Assembly: GCF_014695975.1 (NCBI RefSeq)
Contig: NZ_JACJPI010000061.1
Location: forward strand, 62,001 to 126,000
Direction: 5' to 3'
DNA from: Leptolyngbya sp. FACHB-321
GTDB taxonomy: Bacteria; Cyanobacteriota; Cyanobacteriia; Leptolyngbyales; Leptolyngbyaceae
DNA length: 64,000 bases
Position 1 is the first letter of the stretch; each line of letters starts with the position of its first letter. Under the pieces are notes generated by a model. That model searched no databases. It worked only from the letters and a program-made list of their open reading frames with translations, and was not told the origin of the DNA. Position numbers and translations under genes: made by a program. Below are positions 8,234 through 33,842 of this stretch, in pieces.

Positions 8234-8329
8234 ATGACTACTCATGATCTCCTGATGCTAGTGCTGATGCTAAGTCCCGGCATTCTTCTCTCCGTTGCTG
8301 TTATGGGAATGTTTGCTGCTGGAGGCTAA
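8234..8329 (+). CDS. Possible 31-residue membrane peptide
   Basis: The ATG at 8234 opens 31 codons ending at TAA 8327-8329. The peptide runs MTTHDLLMLVLMLSPGILLS, then VAVMGMFAAGG: a polar start followed by one membrane helix, the shape of small photosystem and thylakoid subunits. I do not recognise it as a named subunit. There is no strong ribosome site, though cyanobacteria often lack one. A 14-bp inverted repeat lies just upstream. It could be chance. Confidence 0.4.
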   Translation: MTTHDLLMLVLMLSPGILLSVAVMGMFAAGG

Positions 8330-8330
8330 G

Positions 8331-8483
8331 GGGGAGAGGAACGAGGGATGCAGGCTAAAGGATGAGGGCTGAAAGTTCTGAGTTTTCTGTCCGTCTTCTG
8401 CTCCGCTGCTTCCCCTGCTCCTTCTATCTCCCTCAGCCTTCTGCCCACTGCTTCCCCTGCTCCTTCTGACCACTGGCTTCCCT
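8331..8483. repeat. Purine/pyrimidine-biased repeat tract
   Basis: A purine-rich part (8331-8375, with GGATGCAGGCTAAAGGATGA) is followed by a pyrimidine-rich part containing a 20-bp direct repeat, CTGCTTCCCCTGCTCCTTCT, at 8406-8425 and 8448-8467. Similar tracts occur at about 45.7, 47.1 and 41.8 kb in this window. The tract touches the 3' end of the oxygenase gene. Confidence 0.65.
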
Positions 8484-8487
8484 TGCT

Positions 8488-9444: not shown

Positions 9445-9490
9445 TATAACGACGAGAAGCGAACGACCAGAATAGGGTGTAGGGTGTGAA

Positions 9491-9838
9491 ATGTCGCAAG
9501 AAGGAGACACACCTTTGGCATCTATTATTTGGCTTATTTTAGTCTACGCACTGCTGGTGGCGATTGGTGGCGTTATCGGCTATGTCAAAGCAAAGAGCAA
9601 CCAATCACTCATATCAGGTTTAGGTAGCGGGGTTGCACTGGCAATCGCCTGGTACATCAGTCTCCAAAATCCTACGGTTGGTTTGGCGCTGGCAGCCGTC
9701 ATTGCACTTGCGTTGCTGGTCGTCTTTGCCCTCCGCTTTCGCGCTACTGGCAAGTTTATGCCCGCAGGCTTACTGGCAATTTTGAGTTTGGTTATGACGG
9801 TTTTGTTTGTCACTGCCTTTTTCCTACCACAAGCTTGA
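9491..9838 (+). CDS. TMEM14 family (UPF0136) membrane protein
   Basis: The 115-residue protein has four hydrophobic helices with the glycine-rich pattern of the TMEM14 family: ALLVAIGGVIGYVKAKSNQS, LISGLGSGVALAIAWY, VGLALAAVIALALLVVFALR, RFRATGKFMPAGLLAILSLV. Eukaryotic relatives include mitochondrial TMEM14 proteins and the plastid fatty-acid exporter FAX1, so a lipid or metabolite transport role is possible but is inference. A GAAGGAG stretch overlaps the start codon region (about 9500), and the gene diverges from the oxygenase gene. Confidence 0.85.
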   Translation: MSQEGDTPLASIIWLILVYALLVAIGGVIGYVKAKSNQSLISGLGSGVALAIAWYISLQNPTVGLALAAVIALALLVVFALRFRATGKFMPAGLLAILSLVMTVLFVTAFFLPQA

Positions 9839-9865
9839 ACGACTACTGTAATCCTTCTGGCACAA

Positions 9866-9891
9866 CACCCGTTTGTTAAGACGAACGGGTG
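9866..9891. terminator. Small hairpin after the TMEM14 gene
   Basis: CACCCGTT (9866-9873) pairs with AACGGGTG (9884-9891) around a 10-base loop. It falls between the TMEM14 stop and the VanW gene and lacks a T-tract. It covers an upstream GTG that could otherwise be taken as the VanW start, which argues for the later ATG. Confidence 0.45.
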
Positions 9892-9957
9892 ATCGGGTTG
9901 CGAAATGAGTCGCGAAAACGTTGTATAGAGGAAAAAGCGCTCTTAGAAAGCCGTTCT

Positions 9958-10713
9958 ATGATGAAGCAGTTGATTCCAGCCCGTTGGCGAGTGCAGTACA
10001 AGGTGATCCAGCGATCAACCGCTGATGTCTTCACCGGGCAGCGTTCAAGATTAGTGCCCTTCAGCCCGATGGGTGGCAGCCAGTTACAGCAATTCACGCC
10101 ACAGGTGACGATCGCCCAACCCATTCCTGCCACGACCCTTTCCGAAAATAAAAAGCATAATTTGGCGTTGGCAGTACAGCGTCTTCAAAACGTCGTCGTG
10201 CAGCCTGGAGCTATCTTTTCCTTCTGGCATTTGGTCGGGGAACCGAACCGCGCTAAAGGCTATCTCGAAGGACGGACGATTATTCAAAATCAGCTCAAAG
10301 CAGACGTGGGTGGTGGCCTTTGCCAGCTTTCTGGTCTACTGTACGTTTTAAGCTTAAAAGCTGGACTCAAAGTGCTGGAGCGCCACCCCCATTCACAAGA
10401 TATCTATACTGATGCCACTCGGTTCGCGCCGCTAGGCTCTGATGCCACTGTTGTCTATGGCTACAAAGATTTTCGGTTTAAGCAGACGCTTGCCATGCCA
10501 ATCTGCCTTCGCTTTGAATTGAGCGATCGAGCAATCCGCGCCATGCTCTGTGCGCCTCTGCCAATTCCAGAGTATGCGATCGACTTTCAGCGGGAGAACG
10601 TAGATGGTGGCATTAGGGTGAATGCCGTGCGCTTACTCAATAGCGAGACGAACGTTGAAGTGCTGCATTCTACAGTGTATCAAACGAAGCAAGCCGAACT
10701 CGCAGAAGCCTGA
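9958..10713 (+). CDS. VanW family protein
   Basis: About 251 residues. The family signature is clear: LAVQRLQNVVVQPGAIFSFW, GYLEGRTIIQNQLKADVGGG and LCQLSGLLYVLSLKAGLKVL, then ERHPHSQDIYTDATRFAPLG. VanW was named from vancomycin-resistance clusters, but the domain's biochemical role is not established and it is widespread outside them. No other van gene is nearby, so resistance should not be assumed. An in-frame GTG lies at 9889 inside a hairpin stem; I prefer the paired ATGs at 9958/9961, giving MMKQLIPARWRVQ. Confidence 0.85.
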   Translation: MMKQLIPARWRVQYKVIQRSTADVFTGQRSRLVPFSPMGGSQLQQFTPQVTIAQPIPATTLSENKKHNLALAVQRLQNVVVQPGAIFSFWHLVGEPNRAKGYLEGRTIIQNQLKADVGGGLCQLSGLLYVLSLKAGLKVLERHPHSQDIYTDATRFAPLGSDATVVYGYKDFRFKQTLAMPICLRFELSDRAIRAMLCAPLPIPEYAIDFQRENVDGGIRVNAVRLLNSETNVEVLHSTVYQTKQAELAEA

Positions 10714-10756
10714 ATGCTGCAACACTTGGGTCAGCATCATGCACTACAACGAACGG

Positions 10757-11446
10757 TTACAGAGTCTCTGGATTGATACCCAATTCTTTCAGTTTGGCAG
10801 CCAGCTTATCCGATCGTTGCCGTTCCTGTTCTAGCTGGTGTTGAGCCTGCTGGTTCTGCTCTATCAGTTCTAGATAGGTCGCAAACTTCTCCCCATCAGG
10901 GCGATAAATTTCTACGCCATCTACCAGCTCAAAGCGGACGTTCAAACGGGGACTGATCCAGCCGATCGGGTTTTCGATCACTTCGAGGAAATCGCCAGCA
11001 CGCAGCCAACCACTAAAATCACCTTTATCTGGATCGTAGAGGTAATATTCCTCAACGCCATAGCGTTCGTAAAAGCGGAACTTCTTTGCCATTTCTACGA
11101 GCGTATTTCCAGGGGAAAGAATTTCAAACGCGACTTGGGGCGGTATGTTTCCTTCTTTCCATTGTTGGTAAGAACCACGTTCGCAAAGCGTCGTCTCTGG
11201 CGATTCGCCCTTCGGACGACCAAAAATCACCATCGTATCGGGAGCCGCTTTGATCGTCTTGCTTCCCTCTACGGGATACCAGAGCAAATCGCCTGCTATG
11301 AAGACGTTGGGATCATGTTTGAACAGAGCTTCACAGCCCAGCTTGATGTAAACAATCTAGTTAAACTGCTTCGTATTGTCAGCCATTGGTTGCCCATCGC
11401 TGTCGGGATAGCTGATGTCTTGGTTGAGTGCAGGCGATCGTGTCAT
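10757..11446 (-). pseudogene. Uma2-family (DUF820) putative nuclease gene with an in-frame nonsense codon
   Basis: The intact-looking start ATG (11446) gives MTRSPALNQDISYPDSDGQP, followed by MADNTKQFN. A TAG at 11359-11357 follows, then the same frame resumes IVYIKLGCEALFKHDPNVFI and LLWYPVEGSKTIKAAPDTMV, to a normal end at 10757. The Uma2 core is present after the stop: VIFGRPKG, SYQQWKEGNIPPQVAFEILS, EYYLYDPDKGDFSGW, and a Gln-rich coiled-coil tail. Uma2 relatives usually have Trp near the TAG position, so one TGG to TAG change would explain it. No strong internal start rescues the rest. I read it as a recent pseudogene, or a sequencing error. Uma2 proteins carry a PD-(D/E)XK nuclease fold of unknown role. 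Confidence 0.8.
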
Positions 11447-11452
11447 GGCAGC

Positions 11453-12280
11453 TTATCCGTGCGTGTTCGCAACAGCAAATGGAAGCACCTGATTTAACTT
11501 ACCACTCCGAAAACCCTCCAGGTCGAGGGTGACGTAGAGAAAGCCAAAGGATTGAAAGGTCGCGACCAGTCTAGGCAAATCTGTAGTCAGGACAAACTCT
11601 TTAAGCTGCTCGGCAGGAAGCTCAATCCGAGCGGTATCGCCTTCAGATCGTACTCGGAAGGTGCTCAACCCCATTCGTCGCAATGAGGCTTCGGCTCGAC
11701 CCACACGCTGTAGTTTGGCGATCGTAATTTCCTCACCATAAGGAAAGCGCGAACTGAGGCACGGTTGGGCAGGCTTATCCCAGCAGGCAAGCCCCAGATG
11801 TTTGGCAAGGGCACGCACGTCTGCTTTGGTAATGCCCAGTTCCGCTAGGGGCGATCGGGCACCCCTTTCCTTGGCTGCCTGAATGCCGGGTCGATAGTCA
11901 GTGAGGTCATCGGCATTAACACCATCCACCACATAGGGATAGCCGCGCTCCAGTGCCAACGGTTTTAGCGTGTCGTGCAGTTCACTCTTGCAGAAATAAC
12001 AACGATTGACCGGATTCGCCGTGTAGTTGGGATTATCCATTTCGTGGGTTTGCACCAGTTCATGGACAATACCAATCTCGGCAGCCTGCACATGGGCATC
12101 TTCGAGATCTTCTGGCAAGAGAGACGGTGAAACAGCGGTAATGGCAAGGGCACGATCGCCCAGCACATCATATGCCACTTTGGCGACCAGGGTACTGTCA
12201 ATGCCGCCAGAGTAAGCAATCAGCGCCCGTTCCATTTCTGCAAACAGGCGCTTGAGTGGTTCAAGTTTGTCGATCGACAT
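11453..12280 (-). CDS. larE: ATP-dependent sacrificial sulfur transferase LarE
   Basis: LarE activates and thiolates the pyridinium dicarboxylate precursor of the nickel-pincer nucleotide, the cofactor of lactate racemase, by giving up its own cysteine sulfur. The 275-residue protein has the PP-loop SGGIDS at 24-29. The family cysteines follow: C94 and C97 (NRCYFCKSEL) and C174 (AQPCLSSRFPYG). C174 sits where the sacrificial cysteine of the Lactobacillus enzyme lies. With three cysteines it could instead hold an iron-sulfur cluster, as described for some LarE proteins. larB and larC are not in the window. The gene ends 6 bp upstream of the start of the Uma2 pseudogene on the same strand. Confidence 0.92.
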   Translation of the reverse strand: MSIDKLEPLKRLFAEMERALIAYSGGIDSTLVAKVAYDVLGDRALAITAVSPSLLPEDLEDAHVQAAEIGIVHELVQTHEMDNPNYTANPVNRCYFCKSELHDTLKPLALERGYPYVVDGVNADDLTDYRPGIQAAKERGARSPLAELGITKADVRALAKHLGLACWDKPAQPCLSSRFPYGEEITIAKLQRVGRAEASLRRMGLSTFRVRSEGDTARIELPAEQLKEFVLTTDLPRLVATFQSFGFLYVTLDLEGFRSGKLNQVLPFAVANTHG

Positions 12281-12499
12281 TGCTAAAAGTCCTTCGCTAC
12301 AGCAGCAGGGAGCACCCCATTACTACCTTAACGTTTGTGAACAACGATCGTTTTAGTCTAATACCAGTTCAAATGCTGCGACAGAAAAAAGAAATTGAGC
12401 AACCACCAGTTAGGGCATCTGGCAGAACTGTGATGCTCCGACTGCTGACACTGATGCCCTTCCTTAGCTAGTCGTTTGGTTAAAGCCAGCGATCGATCG

Positions 12500-13537
12500 T
12501 TAGCCTAACCACTCCGGATTTTGGGCAGTGCCGTCAAACTGACTACTGGTTTTGAATTTTTCGTATTCTCCCTTAGCAGCTGCCTGGGCTGTACGCTGAC
12601 GCAATGCAGCTACTTGTTCCTGGCTTAACGGCTTAAATGTCCGCGCAGCTTCCAATGCCTGAGCGAGAATGTCCATTTTTTCAAAGCCTGTAATGACCGT
12701 TGAAACGGGTAGATTCATGGCGTAATGCAGACACTCGATCGGCGTTACCGTCTTACTTTGAAGAATACTGTTAGCGCCGAGCGCTTTCATCCCCAAAACA
12801 CCAATGCCATCCTTGAGCAAAACGGGCAAAACCTGCTTCTCAAAGCTGCGAAAGTGAGCGTCCATCACGTTAAGTGGCATTTGCACAGCATCAAAGCGGA
12901 AGTTGTTCTGAGCGGCAATTTCAAGCATTCGCAGATGGACAACCGGGTCTTTGTGCCCTGTAAAACCGATATAACGAATCTTGCCTGCTTTTTGTGCCTC
13001 TAGCATTGCTTCTTGAGCACCACCCACTGCAAAAATGCGATCGGGGTCTTCCATCCGAATAATTTCGTGATGCTGCATCAAATCAATGCGATCGGTTTGC
13101 AGCCGTTTGAGCGACTCATCAATTTGCTGGGCAGCCGCCTTCTTCGTCCGACCATCAATTTTGCTCATCAAAAAGACTTTTTCGCGGTAGCCATTCTGAA
13201 GTGCTTTACCCATACGGATTTCGCTGCCGCCGTTGTGATAATCCCAGCAGTTATCCATGAAGTTAATACCGCGATCGATCGCACTCTGAATGAGCTTGAT
13301 GCTCTCTAGCTCCTCTTTGGGTCTACCAATGTGATGACCACCCAAACCAATTAACGAGACTTTTTCGTTGGTGCGACCAAGGGTGCGATACAGCATTTCG
13401 CCCTGTTTCGTTGAACTGGGAGTAGCAGTCGTTTGAGCCAAAAGTGGTTTTAACAAACCCCCAGCTACTACCACACCTGCGGCAGCGACGCTCGAAGTCG
13501 AAACAGCCTTCAGCAAATCGCGTCGATTGATTTCCAC
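12500..13537 (-). CDS. Aldo/keto reductase with twin-arginine leader
   Basis: The 345-residue protein begins MEINRRDLLKAVSTSSVAAA, with NRRDLLK close to the Tat consensus and a hydrophobic run ending near LLAQTTA, so export by the Tat pathway is likely. The mature part is an aldo/keto reductase barrel: LGRTNEKVSLIGLGGHHIG, GINFMDNCWDYHNG (catalytic Asp and Tyr), VFLMSKIDG (Lys) and DLMQHHEI (His). These NAD(P)H enzymes reduce carbonyls or act on sugars; export would need folding with cofactor first, which suits Tat. The substrate is unknown. It is flanked by larE on the same strand, 219 bp away. Confidence 0.9.
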   Translation of the reverse strand: MEINRRDLLKAVSTSSVAAAGVVVAGGLLKPLLAQTTATPSSTKQGEMLYRTLGRTNEKVSLIGLGGHHIGRPKEELESIKLIQSAIDRGINFMDNCWDYHNGGSEIRMGKALQNGYREKVFLMSKIDGRTKKAAAQQIDESLKRLQTDRIDLMQHHEIIRMEDPDRIFAVGGAQEAMLEAQKAGKIRYIGFTGHKDPVVHLRMLEIAAQNNFRFDAVQMPLNVMDAHFRSFEKQVLPVLLKDGIGVLGMKALGANSILQSKTVTPIECLHYAMNLPVSTVITGFEKMDILAQALEAARTFKPLSQEQVAALRQRTAQAAAKGEYEKFKTSSQFDGTAQNPEWLG

Positions 13538-13747
13538 GAAACTCTCCTGGTTGTAGGGATGGTTAAATCTATTCCCTTCAAAGTGGCAGAGTGGCAGTTG
13601 CCCAGCATCTAACGATCGACAGAAATCACGATTGGCAAAAAATGAGCGCGATCGTGCCCTTTAGCCAAAGGCTTCCTGATTAATACAGCTTCGGCTGAGA
13701 CCCATAAAAGGTGAATGCCTGCTCGTCCCACATCAATTCACAACGAA

Positions 13748-15763
13748 TCAATCTCTAGCCAATTTGACGTGCTGGGTTAGGAGTTGCGCTAAGGCTTTCA
13801 AATCAATCGGCTTAGAAATGTAGGCAGTGGAGCCAGCTTCTAGACAAAGGTCACGATCGCCGGTCATCGCCATAGCGGTTTGAGCAATAACGGGAATCGA
13901 TCGATAGCGAGCGTCGCGCTTGAGTTCTTGCGTCAGAGCTAACCCGTCTTCATGGGGCAAGTTGACATCCATCAAAATCAATGCTGGCAGCGCACGCAAT
14001 AAGGCTTGTCGCATCTCGTAGCCGTCCTTGACCCATGTCACCTCATAGCCCAAACGGCTGAGGTAGGTCAACACTAATTTGGCATTGTAGTAGTTGTCTT
14101 CGACGAGCAGAAGATGATTCGATCGGGACGGTGTTTTAGTTGTTTTAGAGCTGATCTGAGAAATATTGTCGTGGGAAGTGTTGCCAGCCTGTAGTCGCTC
14201 TACCACCTTCGAGCCTTTACCTGTCACTGCTGCTTGTACTGCAAAATGAATTTCTGAGCTTGGCTGGGCGATCGATCGCTCAACTGCTTTCTCTTCATTG
14301 CATTTAGTTTCACCGGACTTATCTTCACTGGACTTATCTTCACCGGACTTATCTTCACCGGATGCCAGCATAGGAGGCACCAGTGGCAGGACGATCGTAA
14401 AGCGTGAACCAAACCCCAAAGTCGAACTGACTTCAACCGAACCACCGTGGAGTTCCGCTAGTTTTTGAGTCAGCGCCAGCCCCAAACCCGTGCCCTCATC
14501 ACGGTTAGCCTCTGCGTTAACAAGCTGAGAGTAAGGGCGAAACAATAGTTGCTGCTGGTCTTCTGAAATGCCTGTGCCAGTATCCCAAACAGTGAAGCAA
14601 AGACCGCCATTGATCGCGCTGACTTGCAGCCCCACACTACCTTTAGAGGTAAACTTAAGCGCGTTTGACAACAGATTAAACAACATTTGCTTCAGCCGTA
14701 GCGCGTCGACGACGAGGGTATCAACTTGTGGTGCAATCTCTAGTTTCAGCGTTAGCCCCTTATCGCTTGCTTTCTCCCGCACTAATGTGATCGCCGTTTC
14801 ACAAACCGCTTTCACGGCAGTGGATTCGCAAAATAGATCGAGCTGATTCGCTTCAATTTTCGAGAGATCCAAAATATCGTTAATCAGCGCCAGTAAATGC
14901 TGACCACTGCTTAAAATGATGTTGAGATACTCTTGATGCCGCTTGCTACTGGCGTTAAAGCCCTGTTCGCGCATGAGATGGGTAAAACCCAGAATCGAGC
15001 TAAGAGGGGTGCGAATCTCATGGCTAGTGTTTGCCAAAAAATCGCTTTTGAGCTGGCTGGTTTGGTTCAGTTCTCGGTTGCGGGCAACTAATTCTTGCTG
15101 CTGCTGCCGCTGAGCCTGGATTAGCTCGACCTGAAGCAGAGCAGAACAGAAGCGATCGCAGCTTTGTTCAAGCAGCCAGGGTCTCAACTGCGCCAAGTAG
15201 GACTCTGCTTCACTAAGGCGCTCGTGGGGAGCCGTAGCAACCGGAGCCAAGAGCAGCCAGCCCACAGCAGCCTGACCGTGGCGAACCTGCCAACTGCTAG
15301 CAGAAGAATAGGCTTGCCAAGATTGGAGATCGCGATCGCTCAGGGTTTGACCAACGGCAATTGGCAGTGGGGCAGTTGTATGAGAGTCACTAGAGGCGAT
15401 CGCCCACACGGTAAATGTTGCCGCTGGTGGTTCGTTGGGTGTCGGTCGATCGCTCAAAACGTCTGTAGGCTGCAACGCAAGGGCACACCATTCTCTCAGT
15501 GCTGCACTCAGCTCATTCACCAAAATCTGTGCTAAATGCACTCTAGTAGAGTCGATCGTCTCTAGAGGGGAAGTAGCAGCAAGGAAGGTTGAAACGCAGG
15601 CATTTAGTTTCAGCCCTAATTGGTTCAAGCATCGTTCAGCTTGCAGTTCTACCGCTAGCTGCTGCCCTGTCCTCGCTCCTTCTAGTGTTGTGGGAGCCAC
15701 CGTTATTGGGGGAGATAGTGCGCCCTTACCATCCTGTCCCGGCACATCTGAAGGCTGAAGCAT
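13748..15763 (-). CDS. Hybrid sensor histidine kinase/response regulator
   Basis: About 671 residues from the ATG at 15763, chosen because AGGAG (complement of 15768-15772) precedes it; a start at 15799 is also open. The N-terminal 220 residues look GAF-like but diverged. HisKA has NTSHEIRTPLSSILGFTHLM with the phospho-His at about 248. HATPase_c follows (LFNLLSNALKFT, FTVWDTGTGI, GTGLGLALTQKLAELHGGSV). After a Ser/Glu/Lys-rich linker comes a receiver domain (HLLLVEDNYYNAKL, LILMDVNLPHEDGL, YISKPIDLKAL). There is no membrane helix, so the sensor is cytoplasmic. No partner regulator is adjacent. Confidence 0.95.
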   Translation of the reverse strand: MLQPSDVPGQDGKGALSPPITVAPTTLEGARTGQQLAVELQAERCLNQLGLKLNACVSTFLAATSPLETIDSTRVHLAQILVNELSAALREWCALALQPTDVLSDRPTPNEPPAATFTVWAIASSDSHTTAPLPIAVGQTLSDRDLQSWQAYSSASSWQVRHGQAAVGWLLLAPVATAPHERLSEAESYLAQLRPWLLEQSCDRFCSALLQVELIQAQRQQQQELVARNRELNQTSQLKSDFLANTSHEIRTPLSSILGFTHLMREQGFNASSKRHQEYLNIILSSGQHLLALINDILDLSKIEANQLDLFCESTAVKAVCETAITLVREKASDKGLTLKLEIAPQVDTLVVDALRLKQMLFNLLSNALKFTSKGSVGLQVSAINGGLCFTVWDTGTGISEDQQQLLFRPYSQLVNAEANRDEGTGLGLALTQKLAELHGGSVEVSSTLGFGSRFTIVLPLVPPMLASGEDKSGEDKSSEDKSGETKCNEEKAVERSIAQPSSEIHFAVQAAVTGKGSKVVERLQAGNTSHDNISQISSKTTKTPSRSNHLLLVEDNYYNAKLVLTYLSRLGYEVTWVKDGYEMRQALLRALPALILMDVNLPHEDGLALTQELKRDARYRSIPVIAQTAMAMTGDRDLCLEAGSTAYISKPIDLKALAQLLTQHVKLARD
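14311..14362 (-). repeat. 15-bp minisatellite in the hybrid kinase linker
   Basis: Three to four tandem copies of a 15-bp unit (CACCGGACTTATCTT and close variants) encode SGEDK/SSEDK in the linker between the ATPase and receiver domains. The unit length keeps the reading frame, so linker length can vary between strains. Confidence 0.8.
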
Positions 15764-22742: not shown

Positions 22743-23804
22743 ATGACTGACACCTGGAATCGGCATCACGTTCTCTCTCTGGCAGATTTTACTCCCGACG
22801 AGTACGATACTGTACTGCAAACTGCCAACAGCTTTCGCGAGGTGCTGTCGCGCCGGACAAAAAAGGTGCCTACGCTGCAAGGACAGGTCGTTGCCAATCT
22901 GTTTTTTGAATCGTCTACCCGCACGCGGAGCAGCTTTGAGCTAGCCGCCAAGCGTCTTTCTGCCGATACCCTCAACTTTGCGCCCGGCTCCTCGTCCCTC
23001 ACAAAAGGCGAAACAATTCTGGATACTGCCAAAACCTATCTGGCAATGGGCACCGATATGATGGTAATTCGTCACCGCGAAGCTGGAGTACCTCAGGCGA
23101 TCGCCAACGAAATGGATCGGCTCGGCGTTAAAGTTGGTGTACTGAATGCGGGTGATGGGCAGCATGAGCATCCATCACAAGCGCTTTTAGACCTCTTTAC
23201 CATCACCACACTTCTAGATCCGAATCAACCGCAGTTGTCCTTGCTAAAAGACAAGAAAATTGCGATCGTTGGCGATATTCTGCACTCCCGTGTCGCCCGC
23301 TCTAACCTTTGGAGTCTTACTGCTAGCGGTGCCGAAGTGCATTTAGCAGGACCACCAACATTAGTACCACAACTCTTTGCGGACTTTGTCAAGGAGCCTA
23401 CGGATGAAGGCTTAGGGCTTAAGGCTAGCAGTAAGCAGCCTGATTCATCTTCCAGCCTTAATCCTTTAGCTTTTTCCCGCAAGCTCTTCCTCCATTGGTC
23501 GTTAGAACCCGCTCTCCGTAATGCTGATTTTGTGATGACGCTGCGGCTGCAAAAAGAGCGCATGACTAGCCATCTGTTGCCTAGCTTGCGGGAATATCAC
23601 CAGCAGTTTGGCATTACGCGCGATCGTCTGAAGCTCTGTAATCCTGATGTGAAACTGCTCCATCCCGGTCCCGTTAATCGTGGTGTCGAAATCAGCTCTG
23701 ACCTAATGGATGATCCCCAGTTCAGCCTCATTTCACAACAAGTCACTAGCGGTGTCGCAGTACGGATGGCGCTACTCTACCTTATGGGTAGCAGCAAGGT
23801 TTAG
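22743..23804 (+). CDS. pyrB: Aspartate carbamoyltransferase catalytic subunit
   Basis: PyrB condenses carbamoyl phosphate with aspartate in pyrimidine synthesis. The 353 residues include the carbamoyl-phosphate loop [10 protein letters not shown] at 57-66, [12 protein letters not shown] near 141-152, and [10 protein letters not shown] near 307-316. An in-frame insertion of roughly 25-28 residues (about 219-246, rich in Ser, Gly and Lys, including [17 protein letters not shown]) lies before the conserved [20 protein letters not shown]. It sits between the two domains' secondary elements and may be a surface loop. The enzyme's motifs are all intact, so activity is expected. carB and pyrE are elsewhere in the window. 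Confidence 0.96.
23403..23477. repeat. Palindromic insertion within pyrB
   Basis: The extra DNA in pyrB has inverted-repeat arms (GGGCTTAAGGCT near 23414-23425 and AGCCTTAATCCTTTAGC near 23454-23470) and resembles the intergenic tract at 8341-8365. It looks like a small palindromic repeat that inserted in frame. Confidence 0.5.
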
Positions 23805-23923
23805 AGACCATTTTGGAGTGGTGTGAGTTCACCCCTCGCTTTACAAAATATGAAAGCTACTGACTGACTTTTCAGACCCAGTACATTGCCCTGCTGTCAC
23901 TTGTTGTCTCTAGGGTACAAAAA

Positions 23924-23963
23924 TAAGGTAGGTGAGGCGATCGCGATCGCCTCACCTACCTTA
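23924..23963. terminator. Perfect 40-bp palindrome with overlapping HIP1 sites
   Basis: TAAGGTAGGTGAGGCGATCG is followed at once by its exact reverse complement, so the palindrome has no spacer. Its centre, GCGATCGCGATCGC, is two overlapping HIP1 octamers. It lies between the convergent pyrB and DUF4347 genes and ends ...ACCTTA without a long T-tract. A bidirectional terminator is the likely role; the absence of a loop also allows cruciform extrusion. Confidence 0.75.
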
Positions 23964-24005
23964 ATCCGTTGTATGACACTCAGAGACACAGCACTTAAAT
24001 GCCAG

Positions 24006-24918
24006 TTAACTGAGCAATGTTGGTTTATGCGACTGCGAACGGTCTGACGCGCCACTCACTCGGTACGCTAGGGAGCTGATACGACTGCAAATAGCTAGGG
24101 CTAAAGCCATTCAGTTGCCAGATGTCCGTTTGCCCCAGCGCTGCGTTGTGCCAGAGGAACTCCGGTGTCCGGTCACCGCCTAAATCAGCCACACCCACGA
24201 GCTGCCAATTCACATCCGGCACAGCCGTGACAAAGTAGCCACTCTGTAAACCCGTACTGTTCATCTGCCAAAGCGCATTCTGTCCCGTCGCACGGTTACG
24301 CCACACGATGTCAGCCGTGCCGTCCCCATCAATATCAGCGGTGTCAACCACTTGCCAGTTGGTATCCTCCACGCGGGTGAAGAAGAAGGTGCTCTTGGTC
24401 GTCAAGCCATTCATCTGCCAGATGGCATTCTCGCCTGTGGCTCGGTTACGCCAGAGGAGGTCAGTCGCCCCGTCACGGTCAAAGTCAGCGGTACTGACAA
24501 TTTGCCAGTTCACGTCAGCTACAGTCGTGAGGAAGGCAGTCGTTTGGATACTAAAGCCATTCATCTGCCAAATAGCGTTTTGACCCGTGACCTGATTGCG
24601 CCACACGAGGTCAGCCGTGCCATCAGCATTGAAGTCGCCCGTATCCATGATGCGCCAGTTCACATCGGCAACCGCGGTGAGGAAGTAGCCCGTTTGGTAG
24701 CCAGTGCTGTTCATTTGCCACAGGGCATTCTCACCCGTCACTTGGTTGCGCCACACGATGTCGGCAAAGCCATTACGGTCAAAGTCGGCAGTACTGATAA
24801 TCTGCCAGTTCAAATCAGCCACGGTGGGCATGTAGTAGCTGTTCTGGAGTGTGAAGTCTTTTAGTTGCCAGACCACGTTCTCACCCGTGCCAGTGGGAGC
24901 TGTGCCCGTGGTGCCATT
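24006..24918 (-). repeat. 913-bp direct repeat, copy 1
   Basis: By eye this segment is identical to 27639-28551 (constant offset 3,633). It runs from 19 bases past the stop codon of the first DUF4347 gene up through its FG-GAP domain. Identity ends sharply on both sides. Confidence 0.9.
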
Positions 24919-26928
24919 ACGCCACAGCAGGTTTGCATCTGCTATATTCAGCGTAATGCTTGTTAAAGCTGAAGACAGTGGTGCACCAGCACCAGGATTA
25001 CCATTGTCAGTGATGTTAACACTCAACGTCTGGGCTGTAGTATTGTTCAGGCTTGCTCTGTAGGTGAGATTATTACCAGTAATAAAGCTGTTGATGGCTG
25101 CTAGGGTACCTGCCAGGGTAAGGTTTGTAGCTGTACCGCCAACAGTGACTCCGTTACCAGTGACAGCAGCAAGGGTTCCTGCCGCAACGCTAAAGGTGGC
25201 AGTGAGGGTGCTATCAGCAGCCCCATCATCGGCAAACGTGATACCACTAATGGCACTGGCAGTATTCTTAAGGATGGTTGCGCTAGGGGGAGCGGTAACA
25301 GTGGGTGCGTCGTTGACCGCAGCGACCGTAATCGTTTTGTTGACAGCCGTACTGATGCCATTCGCACCATCCGCTACCACAAAACTGACCGTACGATTGG
25401 TGGTTGAAGGTGCATCTGAGACATTGCTATAAGCAACCCTTTGGAGTAGTGCTTGGGCGGCAACTGGGGTGGAGGCGTTATTAAAGGTGACAACTAACGG
25501 TGTTGTACCGACACCACCAGTAAAGGTGCCAATAGTAGTACCTCCGTAGGTCACGGTGTTACCAGAAACACCAATTTGACCGGGTGCACTGCCCTGATTC
25601 AAAATGGTGAGGCGATCGTCAGCCGTTGCCGTGTTGGAGAGGTTTGCTGTCAGAGTACCTGTGTTTAGGTTGGGAGAATCATCATCCCTTACAGTAGCGG
25701 TAGGGTCAATCGGCGCCGCAGGACCGTTTTCAGTGTAGGCGAGGGGCGCACCAGGAAGGGTGACGATAGGAGGATCGCTAAAAACACCGAATTGAAGATT
25801 GAAAGCAGCATCTACATTAAGGGTTGTCAACCAAGGTGCTGTCGTGATTAATTCACCAAAACTTCTGCTGTTGCTATAAACAAGGTTTCCACCAGGGTAA
25901 GTAGTGGGTGCAACACTGCCCATGCTACCAGAATCAAAGTCAGGTGCAGCATCCAAGTATTCTGTAACACTCAAAAAAGCAACATATTGCGAATTTGCAA
26001 CGACATTAGTACCACCGGTGGTAAATTTGAACTCCTCAAAATCAGGTTGTCCTGTAGTGGCTCGCTGAGGACTCTCGTAAAGTACGGGTCCTGTTGGTCT
26101 TGCTCCTGCTCCGTCCCAAGCCATGATGTAAGCACCGAATTTGATTGGCGCTGCAGTTGTATCGTTCAAGTAAAAGGTGAAAGAGGTTACAGTTGTTTCT
26201 CCAAAGGGTACAGTGAAGACCTGCCCATAGGTGGCTGAACCATCCTCCCCGAAAGGATTGACTGAAGTACGAGGATTCCAGGCTGAAGTTGTATCAACAA
26301 TCAGGGCTAGAACGTTCTCGTAGCTTTCCAGGGCTGTATTCTGTAAGGCAAAAGAAGATTCAATTTCCCCTGTGGACACTTCCAGGTTCCAGTTACCACC
26401 TACGGCGCTACTTCCAGTCAAGTCATTCGATGCCGCAACATCTGCTCCTGTTAACTGGCTCAGAATGGAGACAAACGCCTCGCCCAGTTCGCCCTGCGCC
26501 GTATTGCAGCCATAAAGCAAAATATCGGCATCATTTGTCAGCGCCTGACTCCACGATTGAATCTGCGCCGCGTACTGAGGCAAGTCTGTCAAGTTCAGTA
26601 CGCCACTGCCAAAGTTTAGTCCACCTACTTCACCATGAGAAACAATCTGTAGGCTAGAGACGTTGCTGCGTCCCAGCAGTGTATTAGTAATTTGAGTAAC
26701 GGCATCCTGGGTAGAGTTTAATACATAGACTTCGGTGCCCGGAGATACCCCCGCTATCAACTGCTGATAGTCAGCTACCGCCCCATCAACAAACAAGAGG
26801 GATTGGCTAGATTGTCCTAACGCTGGCAATACAGTTGTCAAACTGGTTGTAGCTAACGCTGGTGCAAGATTAGCGGTAGACAGCACATCAGCAGAAGCTG
26901 TTGTCAACCGAGGAAGCTCAAAGGTCAT
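24025..26928 (-). CDS. DUF4347 surface protein with cadherin-like and FG-GAP/VCBS-type repeats
   Basis: About 967 residues. The DUF4347 domain lies at about 40-200, with SLQIVSHGEVGGLNFGSG and DILLYGCNTAQGELGEAF. A putative beta-sandwich follows (TTVTSFTFYLNDTTAAPIKF), then cadherin-like segments (AAVNDAPTVTAPP). The C-terminal 290 residues hold at least six copies of a repeat of about 48 residues (VWRNQVTGENALWQMN, STADFDRNGFADI), with Asp-rich Ca-binding loops of a beta-propeller. This is a typical large secreted or surface adhesin. I start it at 26928 (MTFELPRLTT), preceded by GGAG; the frame is open to 26994. The last 894 bases of the gene are identical to the next DUF4347 gene. Confidence 0.85.
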   Translation of the reverse strand: MTFELPRLTTASADVLSTANLAPALATTSLTTVLPALGQSSQSLLFVDGAVADYQQLIAGVSPGTEVYVLNSTQDAVTQITNTLLGRSNVSSLQIVSHGEVGGLNFGSGVLNLTDLPQYAAQIQSWSQALTNDADILLYGCNTAQGELGEAFVSILSQLTGADVAASNDLTGSSAVGGNWNLEVSTGEIESSFALQNTALESYENVLALIVDTTSAWNPRTSVNPFGEDGSATYGQVFTVPFGETTVTSFTFYLNDTTAAPIKFGAYIMAWDGAGARPTGPVLYESPQRATTGQPDFEEFKFTTGGTNVVANSQYVAFLSVTEYLDAAPDFDSGSMGSVAPTTYPGGNLVYSNSRSFGELITTAPWLTTLNVDAAFNLQFGVFSDPPIVTLPGAPLAYTENGPAAPIDPTATVRDDDSPNLNTGTLTANLSNTATADDRLTILNQGSAPGQIGVSGNTVTYGGTTIGTFTGGVGTTPLVVTFNNASTPVAAQALLQRVAYSNVSDAPSTTNRTVSFVVADGANGISTAVNKTITVAAVNDAPTVTAPPSATILKNTASAISGITFADDGAADSTLTATFSVAAGTLAAVTGNGVTVGGTATNLTLAGTLAAINSFITGNNLTYRASLNNTTAQTLSVNITDNGNPGAGAPLSSALTSITLNIADANLLWRNGTTGTAPTGTGENVVWQLKDFTLQNSYYMPTVADLNWQIISTADFDRNGFADIVWRNQVTGENALWQMNSTGYQTGYFLTAVADVNWRIMDTGDFNADGTADLVWRNQVTGQNAIWQMNGFSIQTTAFLTTVADVNWQIVSTADFDRDGATDLLWRNRATGENAIWQMNGLTTKSTFFFTRVEDTNWQVVDTADIDGDGTADIVWRNRATGQNALWQMNSTGLQSGYFVTAVPDVNWQLVGVADLGGDRTPEFLWHNAALGQTDIWQLNGFSPSYLQSYQLPSVPSEWRVRPFAVA

Positions 26929-27638
26929 CGTTTTTCGCTCCAGAGATGGAGTGCAGGACAACACCAGACTTCGATATAGGCTAGACGACAGCAAAGGAGT
27001 CGTACTTGCTTACAGAGATCATCCGGTATGTCTGCACTTTAATTTGTTCTCTAAGATTGTGCCCTACCTTGCAAGCAGAGTAATCATTGCATTTAAACCC
27101 CTCAAAATAATTTTTCACAAAAAGTTTACACTCCGTATTGGCACTTAGAGAAGTGACTGAACAATTTAAGATAAACCAATTTTTTCAGTAATGTTACAGA
27201 GCAAGTTGGACAATTAGGCTCTATGAGTCTTTAGTCTGTTCTAAAGACTTAGTGTCACATCTCGCATCTTCATGACACGATATGCTGCTAGCTCAAACTG
27301 TCCCTCAGCGCTAACTGCTATGTCACCAAGTCCTTCAGTTAAGCACAACTGTTTTAATCGCTTCTAAGATATGTCAATTCGTTAGGCAGAGTTGTCCTAC
27401 TCTGACACGGACTTTCTATTTTGCCGCTTGGTTCCTGGTCGTAACCTCTTGGCATCTGCCAGACAGGCTCTTACAGGCTCTTCTATTAACCTGGTAACCA
27501 AAGACCTTAACAGCAGATTCTGAGTAGCGTTGAAAGCCACTCAGAATCTGCACCATTACGTGTTGAACCTAGTTGAAACACGATCGCTAAACCCGTAGGA
27601 ATTAGGATCGTCGATTGAATAGAATACTGGTTAACCGA
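26929..27638. other. Intergenic region between the two DUF4347 genes
   Basis: No gene is supported in these 710 bases. The region is AT-richer than its surroundings. A perfect 11-bp stem (AGATTCTGAGT at 27515-27525 with ACTCAGAATCT at 27539-27549) lies about 110 bp downstream of the second DUF4347 gene's stop and could act as its terminator, though no T-tract follows. The promoter of the 24025-26928 gene must lie near 26930-27100. Confidence 0.5.
27515..27549. terminator. 11-bp perfect hairpin downstream of the larger DUF4347 gene
   Basis: AGATTCTGAGT pairs perfectly with ACTCAGAATCT over a 13-base loop. There is no T-tract on either side, so termination is plausible but not certain. Confidence 0.45.
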
Positions 27639-28551
27639 TTAACTGAGCAATGTTGGTTTATGCGACTGCGAACGGTCTGACGCGCCACTCACTCGGTACG
27701 CTAGGGAGCTGATACGACTGCAAATAGCTAGGGCTAAAGCCATTCAGTTGCCAGATGTCCGTTTGCCCCAGCGCTGCGTTGTGCCAGAGGAACTCCGGTG
27801 TCCGGTCACCGCCTAAATCAGCCACACCCACGAGCTGCCAATTCACATCCGGCACAGCCGTGACAAAGTAGCCACTCTGTAAACCCGTACTGTTCATCTG
27901 CCAAAGCGCATTCTGTCCCGTCGCACGGTTACGCCACACGATGTCAGCCGTGCCGTCCCCATCAATATCAGCGGTGTCAACCACTTGCCAGTTGGTATCC
28001 TCCACGCGGGTGAAGAAGAAGGTGCTCTTGGTCGTCAAGCCATTCATCTGCCAGATGGCATTCTCGCCTGTGGCTCGGTTACGCCAGAGGAGGTCAGTCG
28101 CCCCGTCACGGTCAAAGTCAGCGGTACTGACAATTTGCCAGTTCACGTCAGCTACAGTCGTGAGGAAGGCAGTCGTTTGGATACTAAAGCCATTCATCTG
28201 CCAAATAGCGTTTTGACCCGTGACCTGATTGCGCCACACGAGGTCAGCCGTGCCATCAGCATTGAAGTCGCCCGTATCCATGATGCGCCAGTTCACATCG
28301 GCAACCGCGGTGAGGAAGTAGCCCGTTTGGTAGCCAGTGCTGTTCATTTGCCACAGGGCATTCTCACCCGTCACTTGGTTGCGCCACACGATGTCGGCAA
28401 AGCCATTACGGTCAAAGTCGGCAGTACTGATAATCTGCCAGTTCAAATCAGCCACGGTGGGCATGTAGTAGCTGTTCTGGAGTGTGAAGTCTTTTAGTTG
28501 CCAGACCACGTTCTCACCCGTGCCAGTGGGAGCTGTGCCCGTGGTGCCATT
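27639..28551 (-). repeat. 913-bp direct repeat, copy 2
   Basis: Identical by eye to 24006-24918. It covers the FG-GAP domain and stop of the larger DUF4347 gene plus 19 bases downstream. The N-terminal DUF4347 domains of the two genes are similar but clearly diverged, so the identity of the 3' ends points to recent duplication or gene conversion. Confidence 0.9.
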
Positions 28552-31500
28552 GCGCCAGAGGAGTGTGGCAGCATCATCATTATTGATCGTGCCTGTGCCT
28601 GTACCTGTCGCGATCGTTCCATTGGTCAGAGCCGTGAGATTGACCAGGAAGGTTTCGTTGGCTTCAATGAGACTGTCGCCCTTGCCTAGCACAGTGATGG
28701 TTTGGCTCGTGGTACCGGGGGCAAAGGTGAGGACACCAGACGTGGCTGTATAGTCATTGTCTGCAAGTGTTGCGGTACCGTTGGCAGTCGCATAGCTGAT
28801 GGTGACCGTTTCATCGGTGGCATTAGAAAGGCTGGCAGTAAAGGCATACGGTGTAGTGCCAATGTTGCCTTCAGTTTGACTAACGCTGTTGATGCTGATC
28901 GTGGGGCGGGTATCTTCATTGACGATCGTGCCAGTGCCAATGTTATTGCCAAGGCTACCGCCATTGCTGGCAAGGGTGCCATTGCTGGCATTGCTTAATG
29001 CGACGCTAAAGGTCTGATCTGCTTCAAACTTGGTGTCACCATTGACTAGTACGGTAATGGTTTTGCTGGTTTCACCAGGGGCAAAGCTGAGGGTGCCAGT
29101 AGCAGCAACATAGTCACTGTCAGCCATTGTAGCTGTGCCATCAGCGGTAGTGTAGTTGACGGCAACGGTTTGGGTACTGGCATTAGAAAGGCTGACTGTA
29201 AAGCTATAGGCAGTCGTGCCGCTGTTGCCTTCGGTCTGGCTGACGTTGCCAATACTAATGGTCGGCTGGCTGTCATCATTGGTGATGGTGCTGCTAGCAG
29301 TGGATGTACTGCCAAGATTAACGGCACCAGAAATAGTCGCCGCGCCCGTTAGAGAGAGTTGGAAGGTTTCATCAGGCTCAAATTTAGTGTCACCCGTGGC
29401 ATTAACCGTGATGGTTTTGCTATATTCACCAGGGGCAAAGTTGACCGTGCCCGTAGCGGCGGTGTAGTCGCCATCAGCAACAGTCGCCGTGCCATCCTGA
29501 GTCGTGTAGTTGATGTTGATCGCCTCAAAACTGGAGTTCGAGAGCGTGACTGTGAACCCATAAGCGGTAGCACCGCTGTTGCCTTCAGCCTGGATGAGCG
29601 TAGGTATGATATTCGCCACAGGTATGCTGTCATCGTTAACGATCGTGCCGCTGACGCTGTTACTGCCAGCACCGATCACGCCGTTGATGGCATCTGAGAG
29701 ATTCACCAAGAAGGCTTCGGTGTTCTCATACTTGTCATCAGGGTTGACGTTGACAGTGAAGGTTTTGCTGGTTTCACCTGCGGCAAAGATGAGCGTGCCA
29801 GATGCGGCTGTATAGTCATTATCTGCAAGCGTGGCGGTGCCGTCAGCCGTGGCATAGTTCACGCGCACTTCCTGGGTGCTGGTGTCGTTCAGGCTGACGG
29901 TGAAGGTATAAGGAGGAGTGGGGCCTGGGGTGGTATCTTCGCTCTGGCTGACAGACGTGATGCTGATTATGGGCTGGGGCTTGACGGTAATTGTAAAGGT
30001 TTGCACAACGGAGGTGTCAGTACCATCGTTTGTAGTGCCACCGCTGTCACGCACACTGACGCTGATCGTCGCGGTCGTGGCAGTGGCGAGATTGGTGGCA
30101 GGTGTGTAGATGAGGTTGCCAGCGTTGTCGATCGTCGGTGGGACGGCAAAGATATCCGCGTTGTCTACGGTGACGACATACGCCTGCACGGTTTGACTCA
30201 CTTCGTCAGCAGGTCCGGGGTTGAAGCCTGTTGCCCAGTTGGAGATCGTTTGCTCCCCGGCTCCGGCTGTAATGGTCTGGTCCGAGCCTTTGGTAAATGA
30301 CGGTGCATCATTTACAGCAGTTATGTTGAGACTAATGTTTGTCGTGCCTGAAGGCAGGGAGCCACCTGTGCCTGTATTACCGTTGTCATTGATGCTGACA
30401 CTCAGCGTTTGAGTCGCTACAGAGTCGGGGACTGGAATGTAAGTGAGACTGTTAGCTGCAATGAAGCTGTTGATAGCGGTGATGGTGCCGCTGATGGTGC
30501 GGCTTGTGGCAGTGCCGCCTACAGTAACTTCACCTCCAGAAGTCGCAGCCAGAGTGCCTGCACCAACAGTGAAGGTGGCGGTGACACTGCCGCTACTTGC
30601 GTCTACATCAGCAAACGTAATACCTGCTAGTACGCTAACGCTGTCTTCAATGACAGTGATCGCCGCCGGAGCCGTAACAGTAGGTGCATCGTTTACCGCT
30701 GTTACATTCAATGCCACGTTAGTCACAGCCGAAGACAGTGCCCCACCGCCAGTACTGCTGTTGTCATTGATGCTGACACTGAGTGTTTGGGAGGCAGTAG
30801 CATTCGAGTCTGTGATGTAGGTGAGGTTGTTACCGGTAATAAAGCTGTTAATGGCTGCAAGAGTGCCGCTGAGTGTGCGATTCGTAGCTGTACCGCCGAC
30901 TGTCACGCCACCACCAGAGGTTGCTCCCAGAGTGCCAGTACCAACGGTTAAAGTCGCAGTTACGATGCCGTTGCCAGCATCTGGATCGGCGAACGAAATG
31001 CCTGAGAGAGTGGTAGTGACATCTTCAGTTACAGCGATCGCGGCAGAAGCGATGACAGTGGGTGCATCGTTTACAGCCGTAATACTGATGTTACGAGTTG
31101 TGGTACCAAAGTTGTTGTTAAAACTGCCATCATTGGCGGTAAAGGTAGCTATGCGGGTAGCTGTGCTGGGATTATCACTGTTGTTCTGGTAAGTGATGGT
31201 GCGCAAGGCAGTTTGATAGTTTGCTAGAGTGCTGTCTCCCGTCAGAGCGAGGGTACCTGTTATCGCATTAAAACTGCCTGTAATTCCCAGTTGATCAGTA
31301 AACGCCAGCAAATCTTCACCGTTAACGTAGCCGCTGGTGAGTTGAACGGTAGCTCCCACTAAGTTGTTGTTGTCTATATCGTCGAGCGTGATGGCGGGAT
31401 CAATTGCTTTCGCTACCTGGTTCTCGATGTAAGTTAATGGAGCACCACTACTAAGCGTAGGCGGAGCGTTGGAACCGACAATAATGTTATCAATAAACCA

Positions 31501-32637
31501 ACCGAGTCCTCCGGCAAAAGAACCGGCGCTAAAGCCCCAACGCAATTGGATATTCTGACCCACGGCAGCACCTGGTAGGTTAACAACAACTGTTGAAAAA
31601 GTGCTTAAAGACCCAAACCAGGCTTGCCGTATACCAAACGGACTACTTTCGGCCCCATTCAGATTTCCTACATAGCCGCCCTGCACAAAGCTGCCTCCAG
31701 CAGACAGGATGTCAGTAAAAGCGCCACCGTTAATCGAAATATCTAAAACGCCACCGTCAAAGCTACCATCCGTTCCATAACGGTGGTCAAAGGTCAACGG
31801 GGTCGTTGAAGGCAGGTTAAAGACAGGTGAAGTCAGGTAATTGGTACTGGTGGAGCCGAAATCCGTGGTAAAGGCACTATTGGGCGCTGAACTACTACTT
31901 GAGTTAACTGTTGTCCAAACTGGAACTGCACCAGTACTAGCAACTGTCCATCCAGACGGTAATGTACCAGCAGAAACAGCATCAAAATTTTGACTGAAAA
32001 AGATAGGTAATACCATTTGGTAAGACCGTATGCTATCAGCACTGAATACTAGGGCAGACTCAATACTTCCTATATGAACTTCCAGATCCCAATTGCCGCC
32101 AAGGATTACATTCCCCGTTAAACCATCTGACGCAGCAACGTCAGCTCCGGTTAACTGGCTGAGGATGCTGGTAAAGGCTTTGCCTAGTTCCCCCTGCGCC
32201 ACGTTGCAGCCATACAGCAAAATGTCGGCATCATCTGTTAGCGCCTTGCCCCAACTCTGCAACTGCGCGGCATACTCCGGCAGGTCGCTCAAGTTCAGCT
32301 TGCCAGTGCCAAAGTCCAATCCGCCTGCTTCGCCGTGGGAGACGATGTGAAGGCTAGAGATGCCGTTTCGCCCTAGAAGCGTATTCGTAATTTGGGTGAC
32401 GGCATCCTGGCTAGAGTCCAGGATATGCACTTCTGTGCCCGAAGACGCTCCTGCTACCAGGGTTTGATAATCTGCGACCCCGCCATCCACAAACAGCAGC
32501 GATCGGCTTGACTGATTCGGGCGATTCACACCTAGCGGGTCAACTAACCCACCGACCTCAGGCTGAAGCAACAAGGGTATCGAAAGAGCAGAATCAGCCG
32601 TGGAGAGAGCCGACAACGAAGTAGTTTGAGCAGGCAT
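27658..32637 (-). CDS. Giant DUF4347 surface protein with cadherin-like, Calx-beta and FG-GAP/VCBS-type repeats
   Basis: The 1,659-residue protein starts MPAQTTSLSALSTADS. DUF4347 lies at about 45-210 (SLHIVSHGEAGGLDFGTG, DILLYGCNVAQGELGKAF). A beta-sandwich (GTLPSGWTVASTGAVPVW) follows, then about four cadherin-like units marked by AVNDAPT, then about four Calx-beta units (ATADGTATLADNDYTAASGT, DDKYENTEAFLVNLS, IVNDD). It ends with the same FG-GAP repeat domain as the neighbour. Calx-beta and FG-GAP loops bind calcium. No classic signal peptide is seen, so type I secretion via the C-terminus is a possibility. It probably works in adhesion or matrix building; DUF4347's own role is unknown. 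Confidence 0.88.
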   Translation of the reverse strand: MPAQTTSLSALSTADSALSIPLLLQPEVGGLVDPLGVNRPNQSSRSLLFVDGGVADYQTLVAGASSGTEVHILDSSQDAVTQITNTLLGRNGISSLHIVSHGEAGGLDFGTGKLNLSDLPEYAAQLQSWGKALTDDADILLYGCNVAQGELGKAFTSILSQLTGADVAASDGLTGNVILGGNWDLEVHIGSIESALVFSADSIRSYQMVLPIFFSQNFDAVSAGTLPSGWTVASTGAVPVWTTVNSSSSSAPNSAFTTDFGSTSTNYLTSPVFNLPSTTPLTFDHRYGTDGSFDGGVLDISINGGAFTDILSAGGSFVQGGYVGNLNGAESSPFGIRQAWFGSLSTFSTVVVNLPGAAVGQNIQLRWGFSAGSFAGGLGWFIDNIIVGSNAPPTLSSGAPLTYIENQVAKAIDPAITLDDIDNNNLVGATVQLTSGYVNGEDLLAFTDQLGITGSFNAITGTLALTGDSTLANYQTALRTITYQNNSDNPSTATRIATFTANDGSFNNNFGTTTRNISITAVNDAPTVIASAAIAVTEDVTTTLSGISFADPDAGNGIVTATLTVGTGTLGATSGGGVTVGGTATNRTLSGTLAAINSFITGNNLTYITDSNATASQTLSVSINDNSSTGGGALSSAVTNVALNVTAVNDAPTVTAPAAITVIEDSVSVLAGITFADVDASSGSVTATFTVGAGTLAATSGGEVTVGGTATSRTISGTITAINSFIAANSLTYIPVPDSVATQTLSVSINDNGNTGTGGSLPSGTTNISLNITAVNDAPSFTKGSDQTITAGAGEQTISNWATGFNPGPADEVSQTVQAYVVTVDNADIFAVPPTIDNAGNLIYTPATNLATATTATISVSVRDSGGTTNDGTDTSVVQTFTITVKPQPIISITSVSQSEDTTPGPTPPYTFTVSLNDTSTQEVRVNYATADGTATLADNDYTAASGTLIFAAGETSKTFTVNVNPDDKYENTEAFLVNLSDAINGVIGAGSNSVSGTIVNDDSIPVANIIPTLIQAEGNSGATAYGFTVTLSNSSFEAININYTTQDGTATVADGDYTAATGTVNFAPGEYSKTITVNATGDTKFEPDETFQLSLTGAATISGAVNLGSTSTASSTITNDDSQPTISIGNVSQTEGNSGTTAYSFTVSLSNASTQTVAVNYTTADGTATMADSDYVAATGTLSFAPGETSKTITVLVNGDTKFEADQTFSVALSNASNGTLASNGGSLGNNIGTGTIVNEDTRPTISINSVSQTEGNIGTTPYAFTASLSNATDETVTISYATANGTATLADNDYTATSGVLTFAPGTTSQTITVLGKGDSLIEANETFLVNLTALTNGTIATGTGTGTINNDDAATLLWRNGTTGTAPTGTGENVVWQLKDFTLQNSYYMPTVADLNWQIISTADFDRNGFADIVWRNQVTGENALWQMNSTGYQTGYFLTAVADVNWRIMDTGDFNADGTADLVWRNQVTGQNAIWQMNGFSIQTTAFLTTVADVNWQIVSTADFDRDGATDLLWRNRATGENAIWQMNGLTTKSTFFFTRVEDTNWQVVDTADIDGDGTADIVWRNRATGQNALWQMNSTGLQSGYFVTAVPDVNWQLVGVADLGGDRTPEFLWHNAALGQTDIWQLNGFSPSYLQSYQLPSVPSEWRVRPFAVA

Positions 32638-32772
32638 GGGTAAAATCCAGGGTGACTGGTGGCGGAATTAAGTAGATCATGAGATTTTCCTCTACTTGTA
32701 GAATCCGTTTAATTACGGTCATTTGCCAAAACCGTAACGCCTTATACAGTAGTTACACTCTCGCTTTTAATA

Positions 32773-32808
32773 GATAAGGGACTCGCACAGGTTTGAGCGT
32801 CCCTTATC
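32773..32808. terminator. 10-bp stem hairpin
   Basis: GATAAGGGAC (32773-32782) pairs with GTCCCTTATC (32799-32808). It lies downstream of cysE on the minus strand and upstream of the DUF4347 gene. No T-tract. Confidence 0.45.
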
Positions 32809-32899
32809 ACTCATAACGTGGGTAAAACCACCTTTCGAAGTCCCTACCATCTAGCAGCAACGATTACGCCTTCATACCCAAAAACAAACCACAGCAATA

Positions 32900-32946
32900 C
32901 TTTCATGGTGGCTAGTTAGTTCACAACTAACTAGCCACCATGAAAG
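32900..32946. terminator. 22-bp perfect hairpin with 3-base loop after cysE
   Basis: The arm at 32900-32921 (beginning CTTTCATGGTGGCTAG) is exactly complementary to 32925-32946, leaving the loop CAC. It is 63 bases past the cysE stop. It is unusually long and perfect for a terminator and lacks a T-tract, so it may be a mobile palindrome that serves as one. Confidence 0.6.
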
Positions 32947-33008
32947 AAACCTGATCGCTTCAGCAGTAGTATTACGGGGATGGTCGGAACAACGTCGCGC
33001 TGTTCTTC

Positions 33009-33842
33009 CTAGATGCCAGCACCGTCCAAAAATTCTTCGATTACCTTGTCACGGATGCGGCAACTACGAGAAGTCTCCTCAGCAGACACCTCAGGCTGGT
33101 TAGCAACATACGAGCCGTTGCCGTTTGTACTACCATTACTGCCACCATTAGCTGTTGCAGCAACTGCCGAAACCAGCACCCGCGATTCGTTCAAAGGCTG
33201 CTTTGTGTGCAGGCGTTGAATTTGTTGTTCTAGCGATTCAATGCGATCGACTAGCGCGCGAATAACCTGTGCTTCGGAGTCCGGTAAGCGCCCATGCTCA
33301 AGTGGATCAACCCGTTCGCCCGATCGATGCACAATGCGACCCGGTACGCCAACGACTGTGCAATCTGAAGGGACTGCCCGTAGTACCACTGAGCCTGCCC
33401 CAATGCGAACGCGATCGCCAATTTGAATATTACCCAGCACTTTGGCACCCGCGCCAACCACGACATTCTCCCCTAAGGTTGGATGCCGCTTACCGCCCTC
33501 TTTCCCGGTACCACCGAGAGTCACGCCCTGGTAAATTAGCGCATAGTTACCAATAATCGCCGTTTCCCCAATCACAACACCCATGCCGTGATCAATAAAA
33601 ACGCCTCGCCCAATCTGTGCCCCAGGGTGAATTTCAATGCCTGTCAAAAACCGTGCTAGTTGAGAAAGCAAACGGGGAAAGAACGGCAAGCCCAACCGAT
33701 GCAGCCCATGCGAAAAGCGGTGAAACACTAGCGCCTGCAAGCCTGGATAGCAGAACAAAACCTCTAACCAATTGCGAGCAGCCGGGTCACGCTCAAAGAT
33801 AATGCGAAAATCGGTAAGAAGGTTAGTTAGCACGAGAGACAA
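33009..33842 (-). CDS. cysE: Serine O-acetyltransferase
   Basis: CysE makes O-acetylserine from serine and acetyl-CoA, the first step of cysteine synthesis. The 277-residue protein has the short N-terminal helical region of the EpsC type ([20 protein letters not shown]), then left-handed beta-helix hexapeptides ([40 protein letters not shown]) with the catalytic His in DHGMG. After the hexapeptides come a coiled segment ([18 protein letters not shown]) and a Gly/Asn/Ser linker. The tail ends [10 protein letters not shown], which in cysteine synthase complexes is the kind of end (terminal Ile) that enters CysK. It appears monocistronic. Confidence 0.95.

Follow-up and report, generated by a model that had tools for sequence, protein, structure and literature searches.

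Two tandem genes of the DUF4347 type, here called A and B, carry one identical 3' tail on coding sequences that are otherwise diverged, and this tail was probably spread from one gene to the other by recent gene conversion, or an equivalent module replacement, between old tandem paralogs. The first-pass annotation of the window (the whole 64,000-base stretch analysed, to which all positions refer) had proposed gene conversion or a module swap, and this reading is well supported by the identical tail on diverged paralogs, a 5' edge that falls in older homology, and relatives that differ between the backbone and the module. Most likely, we are dealing with ordinary gene conversion, a known process, of which A and B provide a new example. 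The pair offers a clean case of two large, probably surface-located cyanobacterial proteins with one identical recognition-type domain and divergent other parts, and thereby bears on domain exchange among repeat-rich proteins.

The repeat and its edges

The two copies, reported as identical base for base, do match at 913 of 913 positions between 24006-24918 and 27639-28551 (offset 3633), and exact matching extends precisely as far as first stated. Outside the block, similarity at this offset drops to approximately chance, with 6-21 matching positions per 50-base window, apart from two windows that straddle the edges. No other exact direct repeat in the window exceeds 38 bases, and in the assembly as a whole this sequence has two occurrences, besides a 143-base match (76%) and a 246-base match (67%). 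The draft genome is in 91 contigs, and both copies reside on the same one, which is 170913 bases long. A search for extra genomic copies yielded just a 53-residue remnant on contig C28 as well as partial modules, weaker in match, on C71 and C52. The C28 remnant sits in an 87-codon frame on the minus strand (L116, G000:C28, 1793-2056) and represents part of the tail of a third module, with nothing modular upstream; over 53 residues it is 64% or, in another comparison, 67% identical to the module tail.

At the 3' side, the edge is as sharp as initially described, lying 19 bases past each stop codon (the minus-strand frames begin with their stops at 24025 and 27658), and beyond it no alignment of the two flanks scored above shuffles. 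At the 5' side, the edge had been placed inside the sequence for TGTAPTGTG, which needs correction: in coding order the block begins slightly earlier, at the AAT (Asn) of LLWR|NGTTGTAPTGTG. The codons just before this point are CTG CTG TGG CGT in gene A and CTC CTC TGG CGC in gene B, both encoding LLWR with synonymous differences. Since LLWR is homologous and synonymously different outside the edge, the tract begins in pre-existing homology; judged from these codons, its 5' edge is located a few codons within the older homology.

The age of the tail differs from that of the rest of the genes. Divergence outside the repeat, a further claim of the initial annotation, is borne out by the DUF4347 regions, in which third positions of A and B agree at 0.49 of 164. 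The tract itself carries zero differences across ~195 synonymous sites, which bounds Ks at < ~0.015 (95%). Taken together, the identical tail, the old divergence elsewhere and the synonymous differences at LLWR imply that the tail was homogenised long after the genes had split.

As a mechanism, we propose that A and B were old paralogs in tandem that both already possessed a propeller module, and that one gene replaced the 3' end of the other with its own via homologous recombination anchored in this module, whether by gene conversion or, to the same effect, by a double crossover between copies of the chromosome. The copied tract would extend from the first module codons to 19 bases beyond the stop, leaving an identical, predicted carbohydrate-binding-type propeller on both proteins, while their N-terminal and middle parts would have remained different. 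Within this explanation we infer the process (gene conversion), its recency and the binding of surface sugars. Counting against it, the signals of direction conflict, other tandem pairs show no rule of tail homogenisation (both below), and the tract is not flanked by homology at its 3' end, as a classical one would be, unless the old homology reached its limit there. Gene conversion or unequal recombination has been described as keeping paralogs of one cyanobacterial genome similar; those, however, stay alike over long times and in many species, whereas in A and B identity is confined to the 3' module, the remaining parts have diverged, and a single genome is concerned.

Genes A and B and their surroundings

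Gene B lies upstream of gene A on the same (minus) strand, so that the pair stands in tandem order (Table 1). The ATG at 26928 is probably where gene A truly starts, as a start reading MTFE is common to the Myxacorys gene MyxA and, as MSFE, to Phormidesmis. The middle of gene A is putatively cadherin-like, a label that does not come from Pfam. The DUF4347 regions of A and B score 203.5 and 200.2 bits against PF14252, for which the gathering cut-off is 24.6.

Table 1. Positions of the two genes, their domains, the repeat copies and neighbouring elements in the window
Feature	Positions	Strand	Description	Size or identity	Basis
Palindrome	23924..23963	-	40-base perfect palindrome, then T run on minus strand; probable terminator of gene A		
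Repeat copy 1	24006..24918	-	gene A module minus first codons, stop, 19 bases downstream	913/913	
FG-GAP module of gene A	24025..24936	-	predicted six-bladed beta-propeller, 24 strands; same module in gene B		
Gene A	24025..26994	-	DUF4347, cadherin-like middle, FG-GAP module	989 aa from TTG	ORF, Pfam
DUF4347 of gene A	26290..26814	-			Pfam PF14252 E 2.3e-60, alignment
Spacer, gene B stop to gene A frame	26995..27657	.			scan of 23700-33100
Repeat copy 2	27639..28551	-	gene B module minus first codons, stop, 19 bases downstream	913/913	
Gene B	27658..32637	-	DUF4347, Calx-beta (4 stretches), FG-GAP module	1659 aa	ORF, Pfam
DUF4347 of gene B	31993..32517	-			Pfam PF14252 E 2.4e-59, alignment

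In both DUF4347 regions, SHG and YGC motifs are invariant and are reminiscent of a caspase-like His-Cys pair, so that DUF4347 may be a caspase-like peptidase. The fold of this domain was modelled poorly (pLDDT 42.7) and a profile search of the PDB gave no relative; neither gene A nor the profile of the module found anything there by sequence. Among the matches listed, none of the 4 papers that mention DUF4347 does so in its title or abstract, and a plasmid collection contained 2 matching records, at 38% identity.

A scan of 23700-33100 detected no terminator-like site in the spacer between the genes. Two hairpins of different sequence, at 23924-23963 and 32900-32946, flank the pair, the latter between the 5' end of gene B and a hexapeptide-transferase gene, and no other hairpin in the window combines perfect arms of at least 14 bases with a loop of at most 8. 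On one side, the pair is bordered by argF-like, peroxiredoxin-like, glutathione-transferase-like and helicase genes, and on the other by hexapeptide-transferase-like, SnoaL-like, carB-like and sigma-factor genes. Duplication by a mobile element was rejected, as the eight flanking ORFs scanned include no transposase or integrase; nor did these ORFs reveal a recombinase or an array of silent cassettes near the pair. Synteny and a possible empty site could not be read, with the argF-like and hexapeptide-transferase genes on separate contigs in four of six same-genus relatives, among the matches listed. In G002 these two genes are ~35 kb apart, and in G004 the argF-like gene is absent among the matches listed. 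A scarcity in A and B of sites that we take to be HIP1 was dropped as a signal, given a second gap of similar size at 8197-15152.

The shared module, a predicted propeller

The shared C-terminal module comprises ~300 residues built of 50-residue units, in which the FG-GAP repeat families PF13517 and PF01839 score above cut-off. An AlphaFold2 model, computed from an alignment of ten sequences, has a mean pLDDT of 90.7, a pTM of 0.89 and 24 strands; these strands are confidently predicted and correspond, with the blade count being our own reading of the model, to six blades of four.

Foldseek alone retrieved many propellers with similar scores. In a second-look structural comparison, the closest chain was UmbA4 (Z 26.7, rmsd 2.8, 294 residues), followed by a next-best chain at Z 17.5 and by fungal PVL-type lectins at ~17. 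UmbA4 of Streptomyces (9oee), a lectin, ends in a six-bladed propeller for which binding of teichuronic acid is described (PMC13274773), and the module of A and B matches this fold. UmbA4 differs in other respects, showing 15% identity to the module, having neither DUF4347 nor Calx-beta, and belonging to other bacteria. At an identity of 15%, the match speaks for a fold in common and gives a hint of carbohydrate binding. The module, a predicted carbohydrate-binding-type propeller, may bind a surface sugar. By sequence, the PDB holds no relative of the module at E 0.01.

Relatives and the direction of copying

Gene B is collinear with one gene each in G001 and G005, two genomes of the same genus. 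Their identity to B is 74-76% for DUF4347 and 72% for Calx-beta, and only 52-54% for the module, while the two genes are 71% identical to each other in the module and 79% in Calx-beta. The A/B module is instead 72% identical to that of MyxB, another Myxacorys gene, and groups with it in the module tree (support 96/94). A module clade of A/B with the G001 and G005 counterparts of B (G001B and G005B) is rejected (p-AU 3.7e-5), and one with MyxA has a p-AU of 0.0025. The DUF4347 tree is poorly resolved, with 8 of its 11 inner branches open, and a sister relation of A and B is not rejected (p-AU 0.10). The mismatch between backbone kin and module kin shows that B carries a module other than its backbone would lead one to expect; moreover, because the relatives of this backbone carry another module type, the module behaves as a replaceable unit.

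Which gene was the recipient is indicated in conflicting ways, as the trees mark the module as foreign to B and third-position GC marks it as foreign to A. The latter amounts to 0.41 in the middle of A, 0.67 in the module and 0.58 in the Calx-beta part of B, and the step within A exceeds that in the five relatives measured. The module may have come from outside both backbones, prior to its copying between them. The 3' flanks of A and B were also compared with those of the C28 remnant and of five relatives; none of the 24 comparisons was convincing as to direction, the best score being reached by 15 of 300 shuffles.

Alternative explanations

Long direct repeats favour deletion, and two of them 3.6 kb apart make good substrates for it, which lends some appeal to the earlier suggestion that recombination between the copies fuses the genes in frame and switches a surface protein, in the manner of phase or antigen-like variation. 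The predicted loss of 3633 bases holds, but the in-frame fusion does not: the computed product lacks gene A and contains gene B (4980 bases) letter for letter the same, since the tail and the stop lie within the repeat and no new fusion protein can arise. With the coding sequence of B kept 100% as is, gene A would be lost and could be regained only from other chromosome copies. Silent cassettes are also absent, the other module matches in the genome being partial and 43-56% identical, in addition to the one 53-residue remnant. We therefore regard a variation switch as highly improbable, and the case advises checking the deletion product before a long direct repeat is called one.

Two further explanations question how the repeat came to be identical. 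An assembler can walk the loop formed by a direct repeat and unroll two copies from one consensus, and two similar copies, or even one, may have been merged in one graph node here, making the identity partly a consensus. Some repeats do appear to be collapsed or lost in the assembly of this genome (G000, contigs C61 and C91): the sole 16S match begins with base 1 of a contig of 5031 bases, and the single PF00124 match is a D1-like psbA, with no second match in the assembly that could be psbD, of which most cyanobacteria carry two copies (PMC6053082). However, each copy of the repeat sits between coherent flanks that differ from those of the other copy, all in a single contig, and supplies the end of a full reading frame; merging would in any case require near-identical copies. 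Such an assembly effect is unlikely, and the near-identity of the two copies is likely safe; with other repeats probably collapsed, 'perfect' identity may mean 'nearly identical'. Identical insertion sequences were uninformative as a check on repeat resolution, as none of 11 transposase matches were alike over 150 bases. The other explanation is that a DNA circle carrying the 5' part of gene A and a module integrated into the module of B by a single crossover, an event after which the insert is bordered by direct repeats. Such an integration would produce the sharp-edged X-R-Y-R-Z layout, and among seven same-genus genomes searched only the own genome has two DUF4347 genes on one contig. Yet the circle still requires a near-identical module, merely moving the copying event elsewhere, and the eight flanking ORFs scanned contain no integrase, replication gene or transposase, making integration rather improbable. 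Copying between the resident paralogs A and B remains the preferred reading.

DUF4347 loci in other genomes

Genes A and B are a clear single instance and no general rule. DUF4347 (PF14252) was found in 37 of the 42 genomes of the family searched, and A and B share a strong domain match with the DUF4347 multidomain proteins of cyanobacteria. Unlike the A-B pair, none of 34 other DUF4347 loci (~30 distinct stretches, four being present twice) has a comparable repeat, the longest exact direct repeat measuring 149 bases. It is doubtful that the DUF4347 backbones of this cyanobacterial family repeatedly replace or copy in place a swappable propeller as a recognition head, by which different stalk proteins within a cell would keep, or switch to, the same sugar specificity. 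Comparing heads with tails, there was no tail match whatever in one of five other tandem DUF4347 pairs and 7 of 15 unlinked pairs, the tail was less alike than the head in two of five and 3 of 15, and it was more alike in two of five and 5 of 15, respectively; a tail more similar than the head is thus unspecific as a mark of tandem pairs.

Two loci of same-genus genomes show irregular frames. In one (L115, G003:C429, 1-900), a module of the same subtype is broken into several frames with an in-frame stop. In the other, the G005 counterpart of B (L036 / L111, G005:C75) consists of two overlapping frames of 746 and 1037 aa, a split that represents a frameshift or a sequencing error.
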